38,892 bases of DNA from Gemmatimonadota bacterium (GTDB taxonomy: Bacteria; Gemmatimonadota; Gemmatimonadetes; Gemmatimonadales; GWC2-71-9): contig QKHC01000080.1 in the NCBI GenBank assembly GCA_003251175.1, positions 1 through 38,892 of the forward strand, given 5' to 3'. The notes beneath the pieces were generated by a model. The model was not told the origin of the DNA. It made no database searches and saw only the letters and a program-made list of their open reading frames with translations. The translations under genes were made by a program, and so were the position numbers. Position 1 is the stretch's first letter; the number at the start of each line of letters is the position of its first letter. Positions 19,679 through 33,748 of the stretch are shown in pieces.

Positions 19679-21697
19679 TCAGAACCGCAACCGGCGCGCG
19701 TTGATCGCCACGATCACGGTCGATGCCGACATCAGCACGGCACCGATCGCCGGCGAGAGCAGGATCCCCGCGCCCGCCAGCACCCCGGCGGCGAGCGGCA
19801 GCGCGACGGCGTTGTAGCCCGTCGCCCACCACAGGTTCTGCACCATCTTGCGGTAGGTCGCGCCCGCCAGCTCGACGAGCGCTGCCACGTCGCGGGGGTC
19901 GGAGCGCACCAGGACGATGTCGGCCGACTCCACGGCGACATCGGTGCCGGCGCCGATCGCGATCCCCACGTCGGCCTGGACCAGGGCGGGCGCGTCGTTC
20001 ACGCCGTCACCGACCATCGCGACCGCCATGCCGCGCCGCTGCACCTCCTGGACCTTGGCGGCTTTCTGGTCGGGGAGCACCTCGGCGAAGTACTCGTCGA
20101 GGTCGAGCTCACCTGCCACCCACCGGGCCACCGGCGCGGCATCGCCCGTCAGCATCATGACGCGCACCCCGCGCCGGCGCAGCCGCGCCAGAGCCTCGCG
20201 CGACTCCGCGCGGACGATATCGGCGAGGCCGATGGCGCCGATCACGGCGTCGTCGCGCAGCACGTACACCACCGTCTTGCCCTGCTCGGCCAGGGCGGCG
20301 ATGCGCGGATCGCCCGGCAGACGACCGTGCTCCCTCAGGTACCCGGGGCTCACGACCTTCACCGCCACCCCGTCCACGGTGCCCTGCGCCCCCTTCCCGG
20401 GAATCGCCACGAATTCGGCCGCGGCGCCGTAACCCAGGCCCCGCTCGGCCGCGGCGCGCACGATCCCCGCGGCGATGGGGTGCTCCGAGCGACTCTCGAG
20501 ACCCGCCGCGAGACGCAGCACCGATTGGTCTCCACCCCCGTCGAGCGCCACCACGTCGGTCACACCAAAACGCCCCTCGGTGAGGGTCCCGGTCTTGTCG
20601 AACAGGACGGCGTCGAGAGCGCGCGCCCGCTCGAATGCCGAGCGGTCACGGATCAGCAACCCCTGCCGCGCCGAGAGCGACGTCGAGACGGCGACCACCA
20701 GCGGCACCGCAAGACCCAGGGCGTGCGGGCAGGCGATCACCATCACGGTGACCATCCGCTCGAGCGCGAAGTCGAACTCCCGGCCCAGCGCGAGCCAGGC
20801 CGTGAGGGTGACCGCACCGCCCCCGAGCGCCACCAGGGTGAGCCACAGGGCGGCGCGGTTGGCCAGGTCCTGCGTCCGCGACCGCGTTTCCTGCGCGCGG
20901 CGCACCATGTCGATCACCTGCGACAGGTACGTGTCGGCCCCAGTCTTGGTGACCTGAAGCGTGATCGCCGCCTCGCCGTTGACCGACCCGCCGATCACCT
21001 CGTCGCCTTCCCCCTTCTCGACCGGCTGCGATTCGCCGGTGAGCATCGCCTGGTTCACGCTGGTTCGCCCCTCGGCGACCACGCCATCGGTCGGGACGCG
21101 CTCGCCGGGCTTCACCAGCACCCGGTCGCCGTGACGCAATGCGCTGACCGGCACGTCCTCGATCGATCCGTCGCCCCCGAGGCGGTGCGCCTCGGCGGGC
21201 AGTAGTCGCACGAGCTGCTCCAGTGCGCGCGAGGCGCCCAGCACCGAGCGCATCTCGATCCAGTGCCCCAGCAGCATGATGTCGATGAGGGTCGCCGTCT
21301 CCCAGAAGAAGATCGTGCCCGGCAGTCCCAGCACCACGGCGGCGCTGTACACGTACGCCACGCTGATGGCGATCGCGACCAGCGTCATCATCCCGGGGCG
21401 CCACCGACGCAGCTCGCTCAGCAACCCGGTGAGAAACGGCCACCCGCCGTACACATACACCGCGGACGCGAAGGCGAAGCTCACCCAGGTATCGCCCGGG
21501 AACGCCAGCGCCGAGCGCAGCCCGAAGAGGTGCTGCAGCATGGCCGAGGTGGCGACCACCGGCACCGTGAGGACGAGAGAGATCCAGAAGCGCCGCCGGA
21601 AGTCCGCCACCATGTGTGTGTGGTGGTCTCCGGACCCGCCGGGGTGCTGCGCCGGCGTCGCAGCCTGCCCCTGGTGACCGTGGTGCTCGTGATTCAC
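19679..21697 (-). CDS. copB: Heavy-metal (copper) P-type ATPase, CopB-like
   Basis: His-rich N-terminus VNHEHHGHQGQ...GDHHTHM; CPH metal motif MVIACPHALGLAVPLV; DKTGTLTEG phosphorylation site; MVGDGVNDAPAL. Confidence 0.92.
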   Translation of the reverse strand: MNHEHHGHQGQAATPAQHPGGSGDHHTHMVADFRRRFWISLVLTVPVVATSAMLQHLFGLRSALAFPGDTWVSFAFASAVYVYGGWPFLTGLLSELRRWRPGMMTLVAIAISVAYVYSAAVVLGLPGTIFFWETATLIDIMLLGHWIEMRSVLGASRALEQLVRLLPAEAHRLGGDGSIEDVPVSALRHGDRVLVKPGERVPTDGVVAEGRTSVNQAMLTGESQPVEKGEGDEVIGGSVNGEAAITLQVTKTGADTYLSQVIDMVRRAQETRSRTQDLANRAALWLTLVALGGGAVTLTAWLALGREFDFALERMVTVMVIACPHALGLAVPLVVAVSTSLSARQGLLIRDRSAFERARALDAVLFDKTGTLTEGRFGVTDVVALDGGGDQSVLRLAAGLESRSEHPIAAGIVRAAAERGLGYGAAAEFVAIPGKGAQGTVDGVAVKVVSPGYLREHGRLPGDPRIAALAEQGKTVVYVLRDDAVIGAIGLADIVRAESREALARLRRRGVRVMMLTGDAAPVARWVAGELDLDEYFAEVLPDQKAAKVQEVQRRGMAVAMVGDGVNDAPALVQADVGIAIGAGTDVAVESADIVLVRSDPRDVAALVELAGATYRKMVQNLWWATGYNAVALPLAAGVLAGAGILLSPAIGAVLMSASTVIVAINARRLRF

Positions 21698-21719: not shown

Positions 21720-22943
21720 TCAGTTGGCGATCGGCTGGACGGCGACGCGGACGCCGTCCGGAACGGTCCAGGCGAAGAGCAGCTCGTCACCGAGACGCAG
21801 CAGACGCGGGAAACCGCTCGAGCGCGCCTCCGCGGTCGGGGTCACGAGCCAGGAGCGCGACGGCGGGCCCGCGAGCGGGATCCGTCGCGCACGCACTTCC
21901 GCCGCCTGCGGCCCCGACTCGAGCCAGGTCAGCACCGCTCCGCCGTCGGGCAGCAGCTCGATGTCCACCCGCCCCAGCGGCCGGCCCTCGTCGACGCGCC
22001 GCGCCGTGCCCCAGCTCGCGCCGCCGTCGAACGAGAATGCCGCGAACACGCGCGGCTCGCCGTCCGGCGCGGTGTACCAGGCGATGGCCACGGTGTCGCC
22101 GGACGCGGAGAGCGATGGGCCGTTGACGGGACAGGCCGGGTAGTGCCACTGGTCGGCGGCGACCCGCGCGGGCGCCGTCCACGCACCGTCCACCCAGCGC
22201 ACGACGGCGATGTCGCGGATCTCCTCCGGGCTGCGGTCGCGGTACGCCGCCAGCAGGCCGCCGCCGGTCCGGACGAGCGCCGTCTGGCAGCACTCGCAGG
22301 TGCGTCCGTCGAGCAGCGCCTCGGGACCCAGGGTACCCCCCGTCGTGACCGTGCGGGACCGCAGCGTCATGTCGCCCTGCGCCTCCTCGGTGGGGCCGGC
22401 GAGCGCCATGTCGCGCCCATCGAGCCACACGAGTGCGGCGGTGCTGTCGTCCCACGGCACCATGGACACGAAGCCGTGCTCCTGGGGCGAGGTATCCTTG
22501 TGCGCGGTGATCGGCGGTGTCCACGTCGCTCCCCGGTCGCGCGAGACGGCGAGACGCACGTGGTAGGCGTACACTCCCCCCGGCACCCGCGCCAGCCAGT
22601 GCGCGATCCACGCGCCGTCCGGCAGCACGACGAGCGACGGGAAGTCCGCCCAGTTTACGAAGAACGAGTCACTCGCCACGATGGTGCGCGGCGCCGACCA
22701 CTGGCCGGCCGTACGCGCCGCGACGCGCAGCGCGTGCCTCCCCTCACCCACCGGTTCGAGCCACGTCAGCACCGCCGCGCCGTCGGCGGTGCGCGTGAGG
22801 TTCGGCTCCCCGCTGCCGGGCGGGGCCGAGAACTCGAGCGCGGGTGCCGAGGTGCGCTCCCCCGCACCGCAGCCCAGCAGCAGCGCAGCGAGCGCACCGG
22901 CCCACCACCGGTCAACCACGGTCAGCGTCACAGGCCCAGGCAT
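21720..22943 (-). CDS. BNR/sialidase-like beta-propeller lipoprotein with CECC motif
   Basis: Lipobox AALLLGC; Asp-box-like repeats SRDRGATWTPP and SFDGGASWGTA; GRTCECCQTALVRTGGGLLAAYRD. Confidence 0.8.
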   Translation of the reverse strand: MPGPVTLTVVDRWWAGALAALLLGCGAGERTSAPALEFSAPPGSGEPNLTRTADGAAVLTWLEPVGEGRHALRVAARTAGQWSAPRTIVASDSFFVNWADFPSLVVLPDGAWIAHWLARVPGGVYAYHVRLAVSRDRGATWTPPITAHKDTSPQEHGFVSMVPWDDSTAALVWLDGRDMALAGPTEEAQGDMTLRSRTVTTGGTLGPEALLDGRTCECCQTALVRTGGGLLAAYRDRSPEEIRDIAVVRWVDGAWTAPARVAADQWHYPACPVNGPSLSASGDTVAIAWYTAPDGEPRVFAAFSFDGGASWGTARRVDEGRPLGRVDIELLPDGGAVLTWLESGPQAAEVRARRIPLAGPPSRSWLVTPTAEARSSGFPRLLRLGDELLFAWTVPDGVRVAVQPIAN

Positions 22944-22960: not shown

Positions 22961-23485
22961 CTACCGCCGCTCGTATACGCTCCAGCCACCTTCGGCTCGA
23001 AACGCCATCACCTCATAGGGCTGGGGGTTGGGGCCTTCCATGCCGGGCGACCCCACGGGCATGCCCGCGACGGCGATGCCGGCCACGGCGGGGTGCTCGC
23101 GCAGCATGCGCGCGATCACGTCCGCCGGCACGTGGCCCTCGACGATGTAGTCGCCCACGATGGCGGTGTGGCAGGATTCGAGGGGCTCGGGCACGCCCTG
23201 CTGGCGCTTGATCGGCCCGACGTTGTCCACGTCGTGGGCCGTGACCGTGAACCCGGCCCGCTGGAGGTGCGCGATCCACTGGGTGCAGCAGGTGCAGCTC
23301 GGGTTCTTGTACACGACCACCTCCGGCAGGCCGGTGCCGGACGGCGTCGCGACGGCTGGCGCCACGGGGACCGGCGCCGGCGCGGCTGCCGACCCTTCGC
23401 CCGGCCGCCGGGCATCCAGCAGCAGCACGGCGGCGAGCGCCACCGTCGCGCCCGCGGCCACCATCCAGATCGTGCTCGTCTTCAT
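22961..23485 (-). CDS. DUF411 domain protein (putative copper-binding)
   Basis: VVVYKNPSCTCCTQWIAHLQRAGFTVTAHDV...QQGVPEPLESCHTAIVGDYIVEGHVPADVIARML. Confidence 0.92.
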   Translation of the reverse strand: MKTSTIWMVAAGATVALAAVLLLDARRPGEGSAAAPAPVPVAPAVATPSGTGLPEVVVYKNPSCTCCTQWIAHLQRAGFTVTAHDVDNVGPIKRQQGVPEPLESCHTAIVGDYIVEGHVPADVIARMLREHPAVAGIAVAGMPVGSPGMEGPNPQPYEVMAFRAEGGWSVYERR

Positions 23486-23629: not shown

Positions 23630-26600
23630 TCACCCCTGCCGCACCACTCCGGTGGCGGTGCGCACCGCTTCCACGCTGACGGCGTCGGGCCGGCGCGCCA
23701 CCTGCCAGCGGCGCCACAGCAGATACACCGACGGGATCACCACCAGCGTCAGCGCCGTGGTGGTGATCATCCCCCCCACCATCGGCGCCGCGATGCGCTT
23801 CATCACGTCGGCGCCGGTGCCGTGGCTCCAGAGAATCGGCGCCAGCCCGGCGACGATCGCCGTCACCGTCATCATCACCGGCCGCAGCCGCTCCAGCGCA
23901 CCCTCGCCGACGGCCGCGGCCACGTCGGCGGGGCGGCGCAGACGCCCGTCGAGACGGTGGCGGTGAAAGGCCTCGTCCAGGTAGATCAGCATCACGACGC
24001 CCGTTTCCGCCGCCACCCCCGCGAGCGCGATGAACCCCACCCACACGGCGACGCTGGTGTTGTAACCGGCGATCCACAGGTACCAGACGCCACCCACCAG
24101 CGCGAACGGCACGGTGAGCATCACGATCAGCGACTCCGTCACGCCGCGGAAATTGAGATACAGCAGCAGCAGAATGATGCCCAGGGTCACCGGCACCACC
24201 AGTCGCAGCGTCGCCGCGACGCGCTGCATGAATTCATATTGCCCGCTCCACTCCAGCCGATAGCCCGCGGGCAGCGTCAGGCCGGCAGCCACCACCTGCT
24301 GCGCCTCCGCCACGTAGCTGCCCACGTCCCGCTCGCCGATGTCCACGAAGATCGTGGTGACGGGGAAGGCATTCTCGGTCTTGACGGCCATGGGACCCTG
24401 CCGCACCACGACCTCGGCGATCTGACCCAGCGGGATCTGCAGCAGTCCTCCGGCGGCCGGCGCGTCCATCGCCATGCCGCCCGCCGTGGATGCCAGGCGT
24501 GGTACCGCCATCCCCCGCGGTGCTGGGATCAGGACCTCGCGCAGCTTCTGGACGTTATCGCGCAGCTCGCGCGGGTACCGCACGTTGACCGCGTAGCGCT
24601 CGCGGCCCTCGACCGTGAGGGTCGCATTCATCCCGCCGACACTCGCCATGATGGCCGCGTGGACGTCGCCCACGTTGAGGCCGTAGCGCGCCGCCTCGGC
24701 GCGGTCGATAGCGATGTCCACGTAGTACCCCGACACCCCGCGCTCGGCGAAGGCACTGCGGGTGCCGGCCACGCGCTGCACCAGCCGCTCCACCCGTTGT
24801 CCCAACGCCTGCAGGGTGTCGAGGTCGGGCCCGAAGATCTTGATGCCCACCGGCGTGCGAATGCCCGTTGCCAGCATGTCGATCCGGCCCTTGATCGGCA
24901 TGGTCCACGCGTTGGTCACTCCCGGCATCCGCACCGCCGTATCCATCGCGGCGACGAGCCGCTCGTACGTCATGCCGCGGCGCCACTCCCCCGCGGGTTT
25001 CAGCGTGATGGTCGTCTCGAACATGTCGAGCGGCGCGGGATCGGTCGCCGTGCGCGCCCGGCCGGCCTTGCCCAGGACGGACGCCACCTCCGGGAACGCC
25101 GCCAGCACGCTGTCCTGGTAGCGCATGATCTCGCGGGCCTGCGCGATCGCGACGCCCGGTACGGTGGTCGGCATGAACAGCACCGAGCCCTCGTGCAGCG
25201 GCGGCATGAACTCGCTCCCCAGCCGCCGCCACGGAAGCACGCTGATCGCCAGCACCGCGGCGGCCGCCGCGATCACCGTCCACGGCCGGCGGAGTGCGAA
25301 GCCGATCACGGGGCGGTAGGCGCGTTGCAGCGCGCGATTGACCGGGTTCGACGCCTCGGGCCGGATATGGCCCTTGACGAGGTATCCCATCAGGACCGGC
25401 ACCAGGGTGATGGAGAGCAGCGCCGCGCCCGCCATGGCGAACGTCTTGGTGAAGGCGAGCGGCTTGAAGAGCCGGCCCTCCTGCTGCTCCAGCGCGAACA
25501 CCGGCAGGAAGCTGAAGGTGATGATCAGCAGCGAGAAGAACAGCGGCGGCCCCACCTGCTTCACGCTTTCGCGGACGATCTCCCAGCGCGCCTGGCCCGG
25601 CTGCGCGCGCTCGAGGTGCTTGTGCATGTTCTCGATCATCACGATCGCGGCGTCCACCATGGCCCCGATGGCGATGGCGATCCCTCCCAGGCTCATGATG
25701 TTCACGTTCACGCCGATCGCGCGCATCGTGATGAAGGAGATCAGGATGCCCAGCGGCAGCGTCACGACGGCAACCAGCGCCGAGCGCACGTGCATCAGGA
25801 ACAGCACCGTCACCGCTGCGACGATGAGCGATTCCTCGACGAGCTTCTCCTGCAGCGTGGCGATGGCGCGGTGAATCAGGTCACTGCGGTCGTACGCGGT
25901 GCGGAGGTGCACGCCGGGCGGGAGGCCGCGCTCGATTTCCGCGAGGCGCGCCTTGACCGCCTCGATGGTCTTGAGTGCGTCGGAGCCGAAGCGCATCACG
26001 ACGATCCCGGCAACGACTTCCCCCTGGCCGTTCCAGTCGGCCGCGCCGCGGCGCGGCGCCGGTCCCAGCTGCACCGTGGCGATGTCCGCCACCCGGATCG
26101 GCGTACCGTTGGCGGTGGCGCCCACGGCGACGTTCTCGATGTCGGCGACGCCGTTGAGGTACCCGAGACCACGGATCATGTACTCGCGCCCGCCCATCTC
26201 CAGCACCCGTGCCCCGATGTCCACGTTGTGCGCCCCGATGGCGCTCGCCACCCGGGTCACCGGGATGCTGAACGCGCGCAGCCGCTCGGGGTCCACCTCG
26301 ACCTGATACTGCTTCACGAAGCCACCCAGGCTCGCGACCTCTGACACCCCCGGAACCGCCGTCAGCTGGTAGCGGATGTACCAATCCTGCAGCGTGCGCA
26401 GCTCCGCGAGGTCGAGACTGTCGGACTCGAGCACGTACTCGAACACCCACCCCACACCCGTGGCGTCGGGGCCGAGGGTCGGCTCGACGCCCGGCGGCAG
26501 GTCCTGACGGATGCCGTTGAGGTACTCGAGGACCCGGGAGCGGGCCCAGTAGATGTCCGTTCCGTCCTCGAAGATCACATACACCAGGGAGAGGCCGAAG

Positions 26601-26860
26601 AACGAGTAGCCGCGCACCACCCGCGCGCCGGGCACCTTCAGCATCTCCGAGGCGATGGGATAGGTGATCTGGTCTTCGACGATCTGCGGCGCCTGCTCGC
26701 GGAAGTCGGCCTGCACGATGACCTGCACGTCGGAGAGGTCCGGGATGGCGTCGACCGGTGTGGTGCGCATGGCCCACAGGCCGAAACCCACCAGCGCGAC
26801 CGTGCCGAGCAGCACCAGGAAGCGGTTGCGCAGCGACCAGGAGATGATGCCGCTAATCAT
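23630..26860 (-). CDS. cusA: CusA-type heavy-metal efflux RND permease
   Basis: MISGIISWSLRNRFLVLLGTVALVGFGLWAMRTTPVDAIPDLSDVQVIV...; full-length about 1076 aa HME-RND protein with GIAIAIGAMVDAAIVMIEN. Confidence 0.95.
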   Translation of the reverse strand: MISGIISWSLRNRFLVLLGTVALVGFGLWAMRTTPVDAIPDLSDVQVIVQADFREQAPQIVEDQITYPIASEMLKVPGARVVRGYSFFGLSLVYVIFEDGTDIYWARSRVLEYLNGIRQDLPPGVEPTLGPDATGVGWVFEYVLESDSLDLAELRTLQDWYIRYQLTAVPGVSEVASLGGFVKQYQVEVDPERLRAFSIPVTRVASAIGAHNVDIGARVLEMGGREYMIRGLGYLNGVADIENVAVGATANGTPIRVADIATVQLGPAPRRGAADWNGQGEVVAGIVVMRFGSDALKTIEAVKARLAEIERGLPPGVHLRTAYDRSDLIHRAIATLQEKLVEESLIVAAVTVLFLMHVRSALVAVVTLPLGILISFITMRAIGVNVNIMSLGGIAIAIGAMVDAAIVMIENMHKHLERAQPGQARWEIVRESVKQVGPPLFFSLLIITFSFLPVFALEQQEGRLFKPLAFTKTFAMAGAALLSITLVPVLMGYLVKGHIRPEASNPVNRALQRAYRPVIGFALRRPWTVIAAAAAVLAISVLPWRRLGSEFMPPLHEGSVLFMPTTVPGVAIAQAREIMRYQDSVLAAFPEVASVLGKAGRARTATDPAPLDMFETTITLKPAGEWRRGMTYERLVAAMDTAVRMPGVTNAWTMPIKGRIDMLATGIRTPVGIKIFGPDLDTLQALGQRVERLVQRVAGTRSAFAERGVSGYYVDIAIDRAEAARYGLNVGDVHAAIMASVGGMNATLTVEGRERYAVNVRYPRELRDNVQKLREVLIPAPRGMAVPRLASTAGGMAMDAPAAGGLLQIPLGQIAEVVVRQGPMAVKTENAFPVTTIFVDIGERDVGSYVAEAQQVVAAGLTLPAGYRLEWSGQYEFMQRVAATLRLVVPVTLGIILLLLYLNFRGVTESLIVMLTVPFALVGGVWYLWIAGYNTSVAVWVGFIALAGVAAETGVVMLIYLDEAFHRHRLDGRLRRPADVAAAVGEGALERLRPVMMTVTAIVAGLAPILWSHGTGADVMKRIAAPMVGGMITTTALTLVVIPSVYLLWRRWQVARRPDAVSVEAVRTATGVVRQG

Positions 26861-28070
26861 GGCGGTGTCCTCCTGACGCGGTGTCGCCGGCGGCCCCGTG
26901 CTGCATCCCTGGCATCGCGCCGCCGGTGCTCGCCAGCCGCGATTCGGCGTCGATGAGGAAGTTGGCCGAGGCGACGATGGTCTCCCCCGCCACCAGCCCG
27001 TCGAGGATCTGCACCTGGTCGGCGGCGCGTGCGCCGAGCACCACTTCGTGCGGCACCAGCAAGCCGGCGTCGTCGCGCACGAACACGACGTTGCGCTCGC
27101 CGGTGGCGATCACGGCTGCCAACGGCACGGCGAGCACGTCGGGGAGCTCCGCCTCGAAGAAGGTCGTCGCGTACATCCCGGGCTTGAGCCGCCCGCCGGG
27201 GTTCGGCACGGTCGCCCGCACCTGATTGGTGCGGCTGGCGGCATCCACCGTCGGGTAGATGAAGCTCACGCGGCCCATCAGATGCTCGCCGGGATACGCC
27301 GACAGCTCGATGTGCGCTGGCGCGCCGAGGCGCACGAAGCGGAGGTCCTGCTCGAAGACGTCGCCCGCGACCCAGACCTCGGTCAGATCGGCCACCCGAT
27401 ACAGCGGCATCCCGGACATCACCTGCTGGCCCCCGAGCACGTTCTTCTCGAGCACGATGCCGGTCACGGGCGACACCAAGGTGAGGGTCTTGGTCACCTC
27501 ACCGGTCCGCTCGAGCCGGTCGATCTGCTCCGGGGTGATGTCCCAGTAGGCGAGGCGCCGCCGCGCCGCGGCGAGCATCCCCTGGGCACCGCGCCACGAC
27601 TCGCCCGCCGACGAATCGAGCTGCGCCACCAGGCGTTTCGCCGTCAGCAGCTCCTCCTGAGCAGCAACCAGCATCGGACTGTAGACGGTGAGCAGTGGCT
27701 GCCCACGACGGACTGCTTCGCCGGTGGCGTCCACGAAGAGCCGTTCTACGAACCCGTCGATCTTCGGGGTCACGTCGGCGACCCTCGGCTCCGCGGCTTC
27801 GATACGCCCCACGGTGCGGATCGTGCGGATGAGGGTGCGGCGGTCCACCGTCGTGTAGGTGACGCCCAGCGCCCGCTCCTGGGCCGCGGTGAGATGCACG
27901 GCCTGGCGCATCGCCGTGCCGCTCGAATCGACGGCACCAGCGGTGCCGCCCGCCTGCATCCGGGCATGCTCCTCGGCCGTCATTCCCGGCATCGGTGACT
28001 CGCTCGCACCACCGCCGCACGCCGCGCTCGCGACCGCCAGCAGGACCGCACCCAAGGCACGGATGGTCAT
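26853..28070 (-). CDS. cusB: CusB-type RND periplasmic adaptor
   Basis: VGRIEAAEPRVADVTPKIDGFVERLFVDATGEAVRRGQPLLTVYSPMLVAAQEELL; lipoprotein signal; Met/His-rich termini; 8-nt overlap with cusA. Confidence 0.93.
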   Translation of the reverse strand: MTIRALGAVLLAVASAACGGGASESPMPGMTAEEHARMQAGGTAGAVDSSGTAMRQAVHLTAAQERALGVTYTTVDRRTLIRTIRTVGRIEAAEPRVADVTPKIDGFVERLFVDATGEAVRRGQPLLTVYSPMLVAAQEELLTAKRLVAQLDSSAGESWRGAQGMLAAARRRLAYWDITPEQIDRLERTGEVTKTLTLVSPVTGIVLEKNVLGGQQVMSGMPLYRVADLTEVWVAGDVFEQDLRFVRLGAPAHIELSAYPGEHLMGRVSFIYPTVDAASRTNQVRATVPNPGGRLKPGMYATTFFEAELPDVLAVPLAAVIATGERNVVFVRDDAGLLVPHEVVLGARAADQVQILDGLVAGETIVASANFLIDAESRLASTGGAMPGMQHGAAGDTASGGHRHD

Positions 28071-29341
28071 CGGGTCCCTCCCGTTCCGGCGCCGGTGAGC
28101 GCCTCGAGTTGCGCCACGGCGCCGTGAAACTCCGCCGCGAAGCGCACCCGCTCGATCTCGTAGCGATTGACCGTCATCTCGTTCTCCACCAGCGTCAGAT
28201 AGTCCACCCGCCCCACGCGGTAGGCGGACAGTGCCGCCTCGACCGCCGCGCGCGCCTGCGGGATCACGGCCGTCGCGTACAGCTGCACGAGCTCGCTCGC
28301 GCGCACCGCCGCGGCCCGCCAGCGGACCAGCTCGGCGTAGGTCTCGTTGCCGAGATCGCGCAGCTCGGCATCCGCCATGGCCTGCTCGGCTTGCAGCTCA
28401 CGGCGCTGCGCCAGCTGCTTGCGCCCCGCCCACAGCGGCACGCTGATGCCGACCATGAGGGTGGACATGTCGGCGAACTGCGGGCGCTGGCTGTAGGCCA
28501 CGCCGGCCATGAAATCGGGATACAGCTGCCGCCGCGCGGCGCGATACCCCGCCTCAGCGGCACCGACCCGTTCCCGCGCGGCACGCAACGCCGGTCGGCG
28601 CTCCGCGGCCGCGACAACGAGCGAGTCGAGCGACGGCAGCTCATCTCCGGGCCACGGCAGCTCGAGCGCGCCGATCGATGCCGTCGCCGGCCGATCCAGC
28701 AGCGCGTTGAGGCGCGCCGCCAGTGCCGAACGCTCGGCTGCCATCACGGCGATGTCGCCGGTCATCCTGGCAACGGCCACCTGCGCCTGGAGCACGTCCT
28801 GCTGGAGACCCGAGCCGACCGCATAGCGGGTCTGCGACACGTCGCGGAAGCTCCGCAGCAGGCGCCTCGTCTCCTCCATGATCTCCAGCGCCCGGTCGAC
28901 CGCGGCGAGGTCGGAGTAGACCATCCGCACACGGGCCGCCAGCATCGCGGCCGACTCGTCGGCCTCGAACGAGGCGGCGGCGGCCAGCCCGCGTTCCCGC
29001 TCCGCGGCGTTGCCGAGCTTGCCAGGCCAGGGCAGCATCTGCGTGAGCTGCACCTGGTTCATGGTCATGGGCTCGCCGGTATTGCCGAAGTCGCCCACCA
29101 GCCGGTTCATCAGGCCGAACGACAGCTGCGGATCGGGGAGCGCGCCCACCTGCGGCGCCCGCTCCGCAGCCGCATCGGCGCGGAGCCGCGCGGCACGGAG
29201 CATCGGGTTCGCCTCGAGCGCGAGCGCGACGGCCGCAGCGGCGGTGAGCGTGTCACCCGCCGCCTGGGCCGTGGCGGGCGTTGCGCGCGCGCCCGCCCCG
29301 ATTATGAACGCGGCCATCGCACACCAGCTCAGCCGGCGCAT
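28067..29341 (-). CDS. TolC family outer-membrane efflux protein (CusC-like)
   Basis: DTLTAAAAVALALEANPMLRAARLRADAAAERAPQVGALPDPQLSFGLMN...; ATGA overlap with cusB. Confidence 0.92.
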   Translation of the reverse strand: MRRLSWCAMAAFIIGAGARATPATAQAAGDTLTAAAAVALALEANPMLRAARLRADAAAERAPQVGALPDPQLSFGLMNRLVGDFGNTGEPMTMNQVQLTQMLPWPGKLGNAAERERGLAAAASFEADESAAMLAARVRMVYSDLAAVDRALEIMEETRRLLRSFRDVSQTRYAVGSGLQQDVLQAQVAVARMTGDIAVMAAERSALAARLNALLDRPATASIGALELPWPGDELPSLDSLVVAAAERRPALRAARERVGAAEAGYRAARRQLYPDFMAGVAYSQRPQFADMSTLMVGISVPLWAGRKQLAQRRELQAEQAMADAELRDLGNETYAELVRWRAAAVRASELVQLYATAVIPQARAAVEAALSAYRVGRVDYLTLVENEMTVNRYEIERVRFAAEFHGAVAQLEALTGAGTGGTR

Positions 29342-29467
29342 GATGTCCCTCGACGTTGTCCGTTCACGTGATCCTCCCGCGCACCGCCGACAGATCGGCC
29401 GGGTGCACACGCAGTCGCGCCCCGGCGACGTGCCGGAGCGGCATGGCTCGCCCTCAGGCGAGGAGGA

Positions 29468-29818
29468 TCAGGAGTTGGGCGGGGGAGTTGGCGGGCCGGT
29501 CGTGAGACGGCCGTGGTCCGTCTGCGGTCCCGTGGGCACGGTCAAGGCCACCGCCACGGAGAGCGCGACGGACGCCGGCGCGGTCAGCACTGCCGCCGGC
29601 GTCGCGAGACAACCGAGCATGTCGCCACACGGGCCGGCCTGCGCGTGGTGGCAGTGCCCCGCGAGGGGGGCAACAGCCAGCGACGCCGGTGCCGGCCGCG
29701 GACAGGCGTGGTCCGCAACAGCCATCGGCGGCGGAGCCAGCATCCCGGCGAACGCCGCGAGTGCGATCGCCGCCGTGAGCCGTCTGCGGGCCGGTTGGGG
29801 TCGTGTGGTCAGTGCCAT
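29468..29818 (-). CDS. Small secreted Cys/His-rich hypothetical protein in copper island
   Basis: Signal-like LTAAIALAAFAGMLAPPPMAVA; DHACPRPAP...HCHHAQAGPCGDMLGC; located directly upstream of the TolC-cusBA set. Confidence 0.55.
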   Translation of the reverse strand: MALTTRPQPARRRLTAAIALAAFAGMLAPPPMAVADHACPRPAPASLAVAPLAGHCHHAQAGPCGDMLGCLATPAAVLTAPASVALSVAVALTVPTGPQTDHGRLTTGPPTPPPNS

Positions 29819-30005
29819 GCGCCTCGCTCGAACCCCGAACTGCGTGATCGGGTTCGCGAGTAACAGCCTAGCGCCGTCCCTCGCGGAGGGCAATGCCATC
29901 GCCGGGCCGGGATGTGAAGGGGGCTTTATGGGGACGCTTCGGACGCGGCGGCACCGCGCCCCCGGGACTGCGGGGCACGGGCGCCGCTATGTCGGTTGCC
30001 GCGGG

Positions 30006-30355: not shown

Positions 30356-30850
30356 CTAGATCAGCCCGGCCAGGTCGGGCGCGACGCGCCGCAGCTCCGC
30401 CGCCAATTCGGACTGATCGGCGAGCAGGGCGAAATCGGCGAAGTCGAACCCCGGCGCCACCGTGCATCCCACGAGCGCGTAACTGCCCAGGGGACGCGCG
30501 GCCTGCCAGGCGCCCCCTGGCACGACCGCGACCCGGCGCGCGTCGCCCGTCGAGCCGAGGCGGCGGCGCTCCACGGCGTCGCCGGGCGACGCCATCCACA
30601 ACAGCTCGATGCTCTCACCTTCGTAGAAGTGCCACACCTCGTCCGCCAGCACGCGGTGCCAGCGGCTGCGCTCGCCCGCGGCCAGCAGGAAGTAGATGGT
30701 GGTGAGGGCGGATCGCTCCACCGTCCGATCGGCGGGACGGACCAGACGCGGGGAGCGATACACCTCGGCGAAGTGCCCCCCCTCGGGATGGGGACGCAGG
30801 GCGAGGGCGCGCACCAGCTCGGCCACGCGCCCGGGCGCCCGCGGCGTCAT
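30356..30850 (-). CDS. DUF985 family cupin
   Basis: LRPHPEGGHFAEVYRSPRLVRPADRTVERSALTTIYFLLAAGERSRWHRVLADEVWHFYEGESIEL...VVPGGAWQAARPLGSYALVGCTVAPGFDFADF. Confidence 0.92.
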   Translation of the reverse strand: MTPRAPGRVAELVRALALRPHPEGGHFAEVYRSPRLVRPADRTVERSALTTIYFLLAAGERSRWHRVLADEVWHFYEGESIELLWMASPGDAVERRRLGSTGDARRVAVVPGGAWQAARPLGSYALVGCTVAPGFDFADFALLADQSELAAELRRVAPDLAGLI

Positions 30851-31995
30851 CGCGTGGTCGGCGACGTCGGCAGCACTTCGTAGCGTCCCTGCATCCCCAT
30901 CAGCAGGTGGGCGCCGACGTGACAGTGGAACAGCCACACCCCCGGGTTGTCGGGCGTCATGTCGGCGATCGCCATTCCCATGGGGAGGATGGCGGCGACG
31001 TCGGTGCGCATTTGGTCGATGTCCACCACATTGCCGTGCCAGTGCGGCGCGTGGAACTCGAAGTTGGTGGAGCCCATGATGTACCAGCGTACGCGCTCGC
31101 CGACCCGCATCTGCGGCATCGGGCCGTTGCCGTACAGGAATCCGTTCATCGTCTCACGGAAATGGGCCGCGCCGTCCGGGCCCAGCCCGGGGGTGCCGAA
31201 CACGACCGTGCGCACCACGCTGTCGGGGGTGCCCCAGTAGGTCTGCACGTTGTGGTCGGTGTACAGACTCGACCCCTCGTCCACCTCGATGAACCCCATC
31301 ACGATCTCGCGGTCCACGTCCTTCGGGGTCCCGTCGGGCCTGAGCGCGCCGCGGCGACCGATGATCATCGGCCCCAGAAGCCCGGCGTTCACGTCCTCCA
31401 CTTCGTGCACGTGGGAGTGGTACATCCAGAAGGCCGTGCTGGTCTCGTGCGCCGTGGGACCAGCCCGCTCCGGCACCGGCCAGGTGTAGACGTGGGTCCC
31501 GCCCGTCGGCAGGCCGTCATCCGCCTTGTCGGCTCCGCTGGTGCCATCCTCGTAGAGGGCGCCCTCATCGTCCTTGTCGTAGAAGACGCCGTGTGGATGG
31601 ACACTCACCGGGAAGCGCGCGTTGTTACGGAACACCACCCGGATCGTGTCGCCGACCTCCGCGCGGATCACCGGTCCCAGGAATCCCAGGTGCTCCCACT
31701 CGGGCGGTCGCGGCGTGAGGGTGCGGAACGTCGAATCGGAATACTCCCGGTACAGGGCCTTGACCACGCGGCGGCCCATGCGGCGGGGCCCCGCCTCCGT
31801 GAAGGGGCGCGACACGGAGTCGAACGGCTGCCCGCTGATCAGGTCGCGGCCAGCGGGCGCGTAGTCCCATTCGACCTCGTCGGCGGCGATGTAGTACACC
31901 CGCGTTTGCGGAGCGGGGGTCGCGCGGGCGGCGATCCACACCAGGGCGCCCGCTGCGAGGAGCGCGACGGCGGCGAAGAGACGGCGGGAGTTCAC
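30847..31995 (-). CDS. Ceruloplasmin-like multicopper oxidase
   Basis: Copper-site motifs [50 protein letters not shown] start at 31995 followed by signal-like segment. Confidence 0.9.
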
Positions 31996-32136
31996 GGGGG
32001 TCCTTTCGTTTGGGTCACCGGTCGGAAGCGCCCAACTTGCCCGCCGAGTTGCCGGAAGGCAAGCGAAGAGTGGTTTCCCGTGGCACGGGCGCAGTGTGAT
32101 CGTCCGCGGCAACTCCTCTGAGACCCGAACTTCTTG

Positions 32137-32142
32137 TAACTT
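32137..32142 (+). promoter_or_regulatory. Candidate -10 element (TAACTT), 7 nt before the malate synthase ATG
   Basis: CTTGTAACTTGCAACTCATG; spacing suits a leaderless start; no Shine-Dalgarno seen. Confidence 0.35.
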
Positions 32143-32149
32143 GCAACTC

Positions 32150-33748
32150 ATGACGACCTTTCCCCCAGCCGTCGCCGGCGTCGAGATTCGCGCCCCGCTC
32201 GGCCCGCGGCACGACGAGATCCTGACCGCTCCGGCCCTCACCTTTCTCGCCAAGCTCGCCCGCACCTTCGAGGACCGCCGACGCGACTTGCTGGCGCGTC
32301 GCGTCACGGTGCAGCGCGAGATCCAGGACGGCCGGTTCCCCGATTTCCTCGCCGAGACCGCGGCGGTCCGTGCCGCGGAGTGGACCGTGGCCCCGGCGCC
32401 CGCCGACCTGCGGGACCGCCGCGTGGAGATCACGGGACCGGTCGAGCGCAAGATGATCATCAACGCGCTCAACTCCGGCGCGAAGGTGTTCATGGCCGAC
32501 TTCGAGGACGCCAACGCCCCCACCTGGGCGAACAACGTGGATGGCCAGGTGAACCTGGGCGATGCCGTGCGCCGCGCCATCGAGTTCACCAGTCCCGAGG
32601 GCAAGCAGTATCGGCTCAACCCGGACGTCGCCACGCTGGTCGTGCGCCCCCGCGGCTGGCACCTGGTCGAAAAACACCTGCTGGTGGACGGCCGCCCAAT
32701 CAGCGGCTCGCTGTTCGACTTCGGGCTGTACTTCTTTCACAATGCCGCCGAGCTGATCCGACGCGGCAGCGGTCCGTATTTCTACCTTCCGAAGCTCGAG
32801 AGCCATCTCGAGGCACGGCTGTGGAACGATGTCTTCCTCCTGGCACAGGACACGCTCGGCATCCCGCGGGGTAGCATCCGCGCCACGGTGCTGATCGAGA
32901 CCATCCTAGCGGCGTTCGAGATGGACGAGATTCTCTCCGAGCTGCGGGAGCACTCGAGCGGTCTCAACTGCGGGCGCTGGGACTACATCTTCAGCTTCAT
33001 CAAGAAGTTCCGGCACCGACGCGACTTCGTGCTGCCCGACCGGGCGCTGGTCACGATGGACCGGCACTTCCTGCGCTCGTACGTGGATCTGCTGATCCGC
33101 ACCTGCCATCGCCGCGGCGCCCACGCGATGGGCGGGATGGCGGCGCAGATCCCCATCAAGGCCGATCCCGCCGCCAACGAAAAGGCGCTCGAGAAGGTGC
33201 GCCAGGACAAGCTGCGCGAAGTGCGCGCCGGCCACGACGGGACCTGGGTAGCCCACCCCGGCCTCGTTCCGGTGGCCCAGGGGGTGTTCGACGCGCACAT
33301 GAAGGGAGCCAACCAGCTGGAGCTGCGCCGCGAGGACGTCCGGGTCACGGGCCGCGACCTGCTCACCGTCCCCGAGGGTCCGATCACCGAGGCCGGCCTG
33401 CGGGTCAACGTGGACGTGGGGATCCAGTACCTGGAGTCGTGGCTGGGCGGAGTGGGTTGCGTGCCCATCTACAATCTGATGGAAGACGCGGCCACGGCCG
33501 AGATCTCCCGCACCCAGGTGTGGCAGTGGCTCCACCATGGTGCGGCGCTGGAGGGGGGCCGGGCGGTCACCCCGGAGCTGGTCCGGGCGGTCACGGCGGA
33601 GGAGCTGGAGAAGCTGCGGAAGGCGCTGGGGCCGGCCCGCTTCGACGGAGGGCATTTCGGGCTGGCGGCGCGGTTATTCGACGAGCTGATGACGGGCACG
33701 GAGTTTGCTGATTTCCTCACCCTGAAAGCCTATGACTATCTCGACTGA
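32150..33748 (+). CDS. aceB: Malate synthase A
   Basis: [116 protein letters not shown]. Confidence 0.96.

Follow-up and report, generated by a model that had tools for sequence, protein, structure and literature searches.

CopG is a thioredoxin-like protein in which a CxCC motif and two methionine residues bind a tetranuclear copper (Cu4) cluster (PMC7558416, PMC8456105), and reduction by TlpA precedes the copper loading of the chaperone ScoI and of CoxB, the CuA subunit (PMC6696091). In Nitrososphaera viennensis, a gene named 'sialidase' is found together with a DsbD gene in clusters upregulated under copper limitation (PMC7785015); this possible relative by name was the only lead that the literature gave. 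Our literature search on sialidase or BNR proteins and copper yielded no description of this family and a curated family naming the protein was not found; its annotated public copies are called 'sialidase family protein', 'exo-alpha-sialidase' or hypothetical. Here, we describe a member encoded in the window, the whole stretch of 38,892 nucleotides of a Gemmatimonadota contig that was analysed. We propose, at roughly even chances, that it is an exported, lipid-anchored propeller with a thiolate site, by inference a Cu(I)-binding one, which is served by a thioredoxin-fold partner.

The open reading frame with a lipobox and Asp-box-like repeats described in the earlier note was borne out and lies on the minus strand (Table 1). 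The N-terminus (...ALAALLLGC, followed by GAG) matches a lipobox (LLGC) of the exported type, and two canonical Asp boxes were found, SRDRGATW at residue 134 and SFDGGASW at residue 304. The Pfam BNR_2 match, 33.7 bits, is just over the cut-off of 31.4. No matching family was returned by an NCBIfam search with the protein of the window, phmmer against the PDB found nothing, and a profile search gave weak sialidase matches alone. The CECC motif was located exactly by the earlier note, its codons running from 22298 to 22287; the three closely spaced cysteine residues to which that note pointed are present, with a fourth invariant cysteine, C271, which it had overlooked.

The gene is the fifth of a same-strand run of six, cusC-cusB-cusA-DUF411(CopG)-BNR-copB, with gaps of 17 bp to the DUF411 gene and about 22 bp to copB. 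The flanks named previously, a CopB-like ATPase and a DUF411 gene on the same strand, were confirmed, the DUF411 gene (85.7 bits) lying upstream and the P1B ATPase with its CPH motif downstream. Absent from the earlier note was that the neighbouring DUF411/CopG protein carries a CxCC too. As listed, the ATPase frame begins upstream of the BNR stop codon, but its likely start is the GTG at 21697, which gives the protein a His-rich N-terminus (NHEHHGHQGQ...HHTHM). The multicopper oxidase frame has a long 5' extension that is out of family and probably spurious, the true start being probably well downstream of 32634. Just upstream of cusC, a 143-residue open reading frame (29468-29899, minus strand) contains Cys and His residues and a proline-rich PP tail, and resembles the criteria given for CutF-like proteins (small, likely signal peptide, Cys, C-terminal PP, no Pfam match; PMC8456105). 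A recent plasmid import of the island, considered at the DNA level, was rejected: nothing closely similar was found to span the island, whose GC content is equal to that of the window.

Table 1. Positions of the BNR gene, its cysteine codons and the surrounding copper genes in the window.
Feature	Positions	Strand	Evidence
BNR/sialidase-fold lipoprotein, 407 aa, four-Cys site (C216, C218, C219, C271)	21720..22943	minus	PF13088, alignment, AF2
CECC, residues 216-219, loop ahead of blade 4 first strand	22287..22298	minus	sequence, alignment, AF2 model
C271 codon (CPVNGP), fourth invariant Cys, loop ahead of blade 5 first strand	22131..22133	minus	sequence, alignment
CopB-type P1B ATPase, CPH motif (ACPHALG)	19679..21697 (listed ORF opens at 21790)	minus	TIGR01511, 594.9 bits
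DUF411/CopG-type protein, own CxCC (NPSCTCCTQW), two Met near C-terminus (GMPVGSPGME)	22961..23485	minus	PF04214, 85.7 bits
CusA/CzcA-family heavy-metal RND transporter	23630..26860	minus	TIGR00914, 1154.6 bits
CusB-like periplasmic adaptor	26853..28070	minus	PF16576, 256.6 bits
TolC-family outer membrane protein, CusC-like	28067..29410	minus	PF02321, 131.5 bits
Multicopper oxidase, farther upstream	30847..32634	minus	PF07731 and PF07732

We investigated the conservation of the cysteine residues in 80 relative loci taken from genome contigs of many phyla by search patterns that did not include CxCC. The motif was present in all 80, no fetched locus lacking it, and in all 25 sequences, the one of the window included, of a separate earlier set. 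When the window protein was aligned with 78 of these relatives, C216, C218, C219 and C271 were invariant, as were H156, M192, R235, R237, R243, D244 and N274, and R325, E155 and Y127 are further invariant residues of the family; in 60 of these 79 sequences the mature protein has no other cysteine. The complete conservation of C271 among the 80 loci is partly by construction, this residue falling within one of the two search patterns, and it was also kept in the 25-sequence set and in distant paralogs, both independent of the 80 loci. The CxCC motif is no chance feature, since four cysteine residues are invariant and CxCC occurs in every locus although it stood outside the patterns. The earlier suggestion that an exported protein carries a conserved site of cysteine residues is supported. 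One scan detected at least 565 relatives in Gemmatimonadota, Acidobacteriota, Bacteroidota, Pseudomonadota and others. The distant paralogs, at about 30% identity, carry CPCC and likewise retain a histidine and the fourth cysteine. Loci L116-L125, from relatives of the genome of the window, hold such paralogs, with CPCC-R and CPHxGP motifs; in several genomes CPCC paralogs adjoin TonB-dependent receptors, and some have MsrP/MsrQ genes close by. These paralogs may represent a further branch of the thiolate-site family, one linked to uptake.

The AlphaFold2 model built on the 79-row alignment was an all-beta six-bladed propeller with a mean pLDDT of 91.9 and a pTM of 0.89. In its predicted strand layout, residues 216-221 with the CxCC form the loop leading into the first strand of blade 4, and the loop with C271 leads into that of blade 5. 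H156 lies at the start of blade 3, M192 at the start of a strand that comes after a blade-3 loop, and R235-R237 stand at a blade 4 loop. Propeller loops of this kind open on one face. As the cysteine loops of successive blades would open on the same face, a single site there is likely, and the four cysteine residues probably sit on one face, in inter-blade loops of the predicted propeller.

The genomic neighbourhoods of the relatives were then compared for copper-type genes, counted as HME-RND, CusB, P1B ATPase, MCO and DUF411. HME-RND pumps and CPC-type ATPases can also transport other metals. Such a gene was found within 5 kb at 11 of the 80 loci, and the two hits at 5-10 kb both belonged to those same loci. 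Adjusted for the sequence available, the 17 hits lying at 0-5 kb and the 2 lying at 5-10 kb represent an enrichment with a p of 0.003; counted by locus, the test gave 11 against 2 (p = 0.04). Clear operons among these loci were, for example, CusA-CusC-CusB-HMBD-BNR (L082) and CusA-BNR-CusC-CusB (L109) in Bacteroidota, MCO-TolC-cupredoxin-DUF1775-BNR (L042) and a YHS/HMBD P1B ATPase (L065) or a P1B ATPase (L112) adjoining the BNR gene in Acidobacteriota, and CusCBA-DUF411-MCO-CopB near it in Gammaproteobacteria (L089). All nine Roseobacter plasmid copies that were opened lay among copper genes, in two layouts: TolC-MCO-copper-binding protein-plastocyanin-ABC-cytochrome c-BNR, with CusA or P-type ATPases nearby, and BNR with a two-component system, CopC, CopD and MCO. 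Mapped onto a 99-sequence tree, copper context required 11 changes, at least 8 of them forced by starred branches, gains being indistinguishable from losses. Copper linkage arose repeatedly, in Roseobacter plasmids, Saprospiraceae, Acidobacteriota, Gammaproteobacteria and the window. A single separate copper clade was ruled out, the copper context being scattered on the tree. Most family members have no copper genes nearby, and in the 23 other BNR-bearing relatives of the same order neither DUF411 nor an above-cut-off CusA was found near the BNR gene. The expectation that CxCC homologs lie in copper neighbourhoods hence held for the enrichment and its independent recurrence, but just 11 of 80 loci show it and most members are elsewhere.

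At the genome level, 60 relatives of the genome of the window were sampled, 23 with the BNR gene and 37 without. DUF411 occurred in 21/23 BNR-bearing genomes against 20/37 others (OR 8.9, p 0.004) and SCO1 in 21/23 against 19/37 (OR 9.9, p 0.002). In these genomes alkaline phosphatase trended the same way (OR 4.9, p 0.09) and catalase did not co-occur with BNR (p 1.0). This co-occurrence gives weak support, because an aerobic lifestyle could explain part of it; genome size may be reflected as well.

The commonest partner of the family was a TlpA/ResA-like thioredoxin, encoded at 19 of the 80 loci by the immediately following gene, in the same orientation and nearly without a gap. Within 2.5 kb there were 20 TlpA hits, and farther away a single one (p = 2e-9), the related sequences not being independent. 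At two more loci, in Acidobacteriota, the two are fused in a single protein with the TlpA-like thioredoxin C-terminal (L076:9848-11539 and L104:9842-11554), good single-chain targets for structure determination, and a CPCC paralog (L116) is likewise fused to a TlpA domain. Because CopG is itself thioredoxin-like, a thioredoxin-fold partner is common to the copper and the TlpA contexts. With TlpA/ResA as the dominant genomic partner, a thiol role is favoured no less than Cu(I) binding: the tie to copper genes is genuine but confined to a minority, and the association with a thiol partner is the more regular and better supported of the two. The copper-handling interpretation put forward earlier is thus partly supported: the recurrent copper linkage is on its side, while the dominance of TlpA/ResA speaks at least as strongly for the thiol function that the same note had offered as an option.

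We propose that a propeller of sialidase fold would have become a thiolate-site protein instead of a sialidase. The CxCC motif and C271, probably with H156 and perhaps M192, would lie on one face of blades 3-5 and most likely form a Cu(I)-binding site, either periplasmic or exposed on the cell surface. The protein might hold Cu(I), or pass it between CopG/DUF411 and the CusCBA/CopB export machinery of its own operon, and a thioredoxin-fold partner, TlpA/ResA in many lineages and CopG here, would keep the thiols reduced or exchange thiols and copper. We infer that the cysteine residues come together in three dimensions, that they bind a metal, that this metal is copper, and which way it is passed on. 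More tentatively, and with somewhat less than even confidence, the four cysteine residues (CxCC and C, perhaps with His/Met) could form a putative Cu(I)-thiolate or multi-copper cluster, present on widespread exported propellers that are paired with TlpA or CopG for envelope copper.

The main rival, which we consider unlikely, is a thiol-redox protein without metal, whose CxCC and C271 would swap disulfides with TlpA (or with CopG/DsbA). TlpA could then act on the propeller as its substrate, or the propeller could serve some envelope protein as reductase or redox switch, and copper operons would carry it since copper oxidises periplasmic thiols. A TlpA partner also fits metal-free disulfide exchange, a point against Cu(I) binding, and TlpA/ResA is the strongest genomic partner, to which members of two subfamilies are naturally fused. 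A redox role also agrees with the DsbA genes found close to some copies in Roseobacter, with MsrPQ near CPCC paralogs and with the position of most members away from copper genes. However, a CxCC with its adjacent cysteine residues is an unusual site for disulfide exchange. The repeated origin of copper linkage on the tree also counts against a purely redox function, as does the Cu4 cluster bound by the same CxCC in the neighbouring CopG family (PMC7558416).

Less likely still is a sugar-active enzyme, and the prospect that the protein is a sialidase or another enzyme of the glycoside-hydrolase propellers appears rather remote. The cysteine residues would in that case serve a structural or catalytic metal (e.g. 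Zn) or form disulfides, and copper islands would carry a surface-modifying enzyme. Foldseek with the AlphaFold2 model retrieved sialidases and related glycoside-hydrolase propellers with a TM of about 0.5-0.6, in line with the BNR_2 match, and two Asp boxes (S-x-D-x-G-x-x-W) occur in 55 of the 79 aligned sequences, but identity to the solved sialidases was 8-18%. The sialidase FRIP motif ([FYW]R[IVL]P near the N-terminus) was absent in 78 of the 79 sequences, with one WRIP at residue 248 of L094, and no carbohydrate-gene context recurred among the 25 commonest families of immediate neighbours. Residues of the kinds that make up the GH33 catalytic set (Arg triad, Tyr/Glu nucleophile pair, Asp acid/base) are found among the invariant positions of the alignment; R235, R237, R243, R325, D244, E155 and Y127 could be catalytic, and CPCC paralogs adjoin TonB-dependent receptors. 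We retain the enzyme because these invariant residues remain. Copper or thiol handling is more likely than sugar cleavage, since four conserved cysteine residues go with a gene placed beside copper genes or a TlpA-type partner across phyla. That an unrelated periplasmic protein resides in the copper operon of this genome by chance is highly improbable: its nearest relatives on the tree (L036, L004) are without copper context, but the 17- and about 22-bp gaps in a six-gene run and the independent copper linkages repeated across phyla argue against a passenger.

If the Cu(I)-binding propeller is true, the 'sialidase' label has hidden a periplasmic component of copper handling, its copper site would stand on a scaffold, the sialidase-fold propeller, not known to carry one, and through the pairing with TlpA the reduction of envelope thiols would be tied to copper in lineages for which few models exist. 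The Roseobacters carrying family members on plasmids, such as Phaeobacter inhibens P66 and Sulfitobacter indolifex DSM 14862, are culturable, so the readings are directly testable there.

Compared with known systems, the BNR protein is a variant on a known fold and not a new kind of system. With the GH33 exo-alpha-sialidases and BNR_2 proteins it shares the six-bladed propeller, the Asp boxes and the PF13088 match, but the family lacks FRIP, has CxCC and C, and stands beside copper genes or TlpA. The Roseobacter copper-plasmid 'sialidase family protein' (e.g. WP_005619237.1, WP_007120881.1) belongs to the same family, is 39-44% identical, keeps CxCC and C271 and lies beside MCO, plastocyanin, CusA or P-type ATPases; unlike the window protein, these copies have other operon layouts, some with two extra cysteine residues near the C-terminus, and bear a generic name alone. 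ScoI and CoxB of Bradyrhizobium have periplasmic cysteine residues reduced by TlpA (PMC6696091), as the BNR protein often adjoins or is fused to a TlpA-like protein, but ScoI has a thioredoxin fold with no homology to the propeller. CopG/DUF411 (PF04214), the neighbour in the window, likewise carries a CxCC on an exported protein in Cus/CopB copper operons; it is of thioredoxin-like fold and about 170 residues, whereas the BNR protein is a propeller with no PF04214 match, and the CxCC common to both is convergent, a shared motif without homology.
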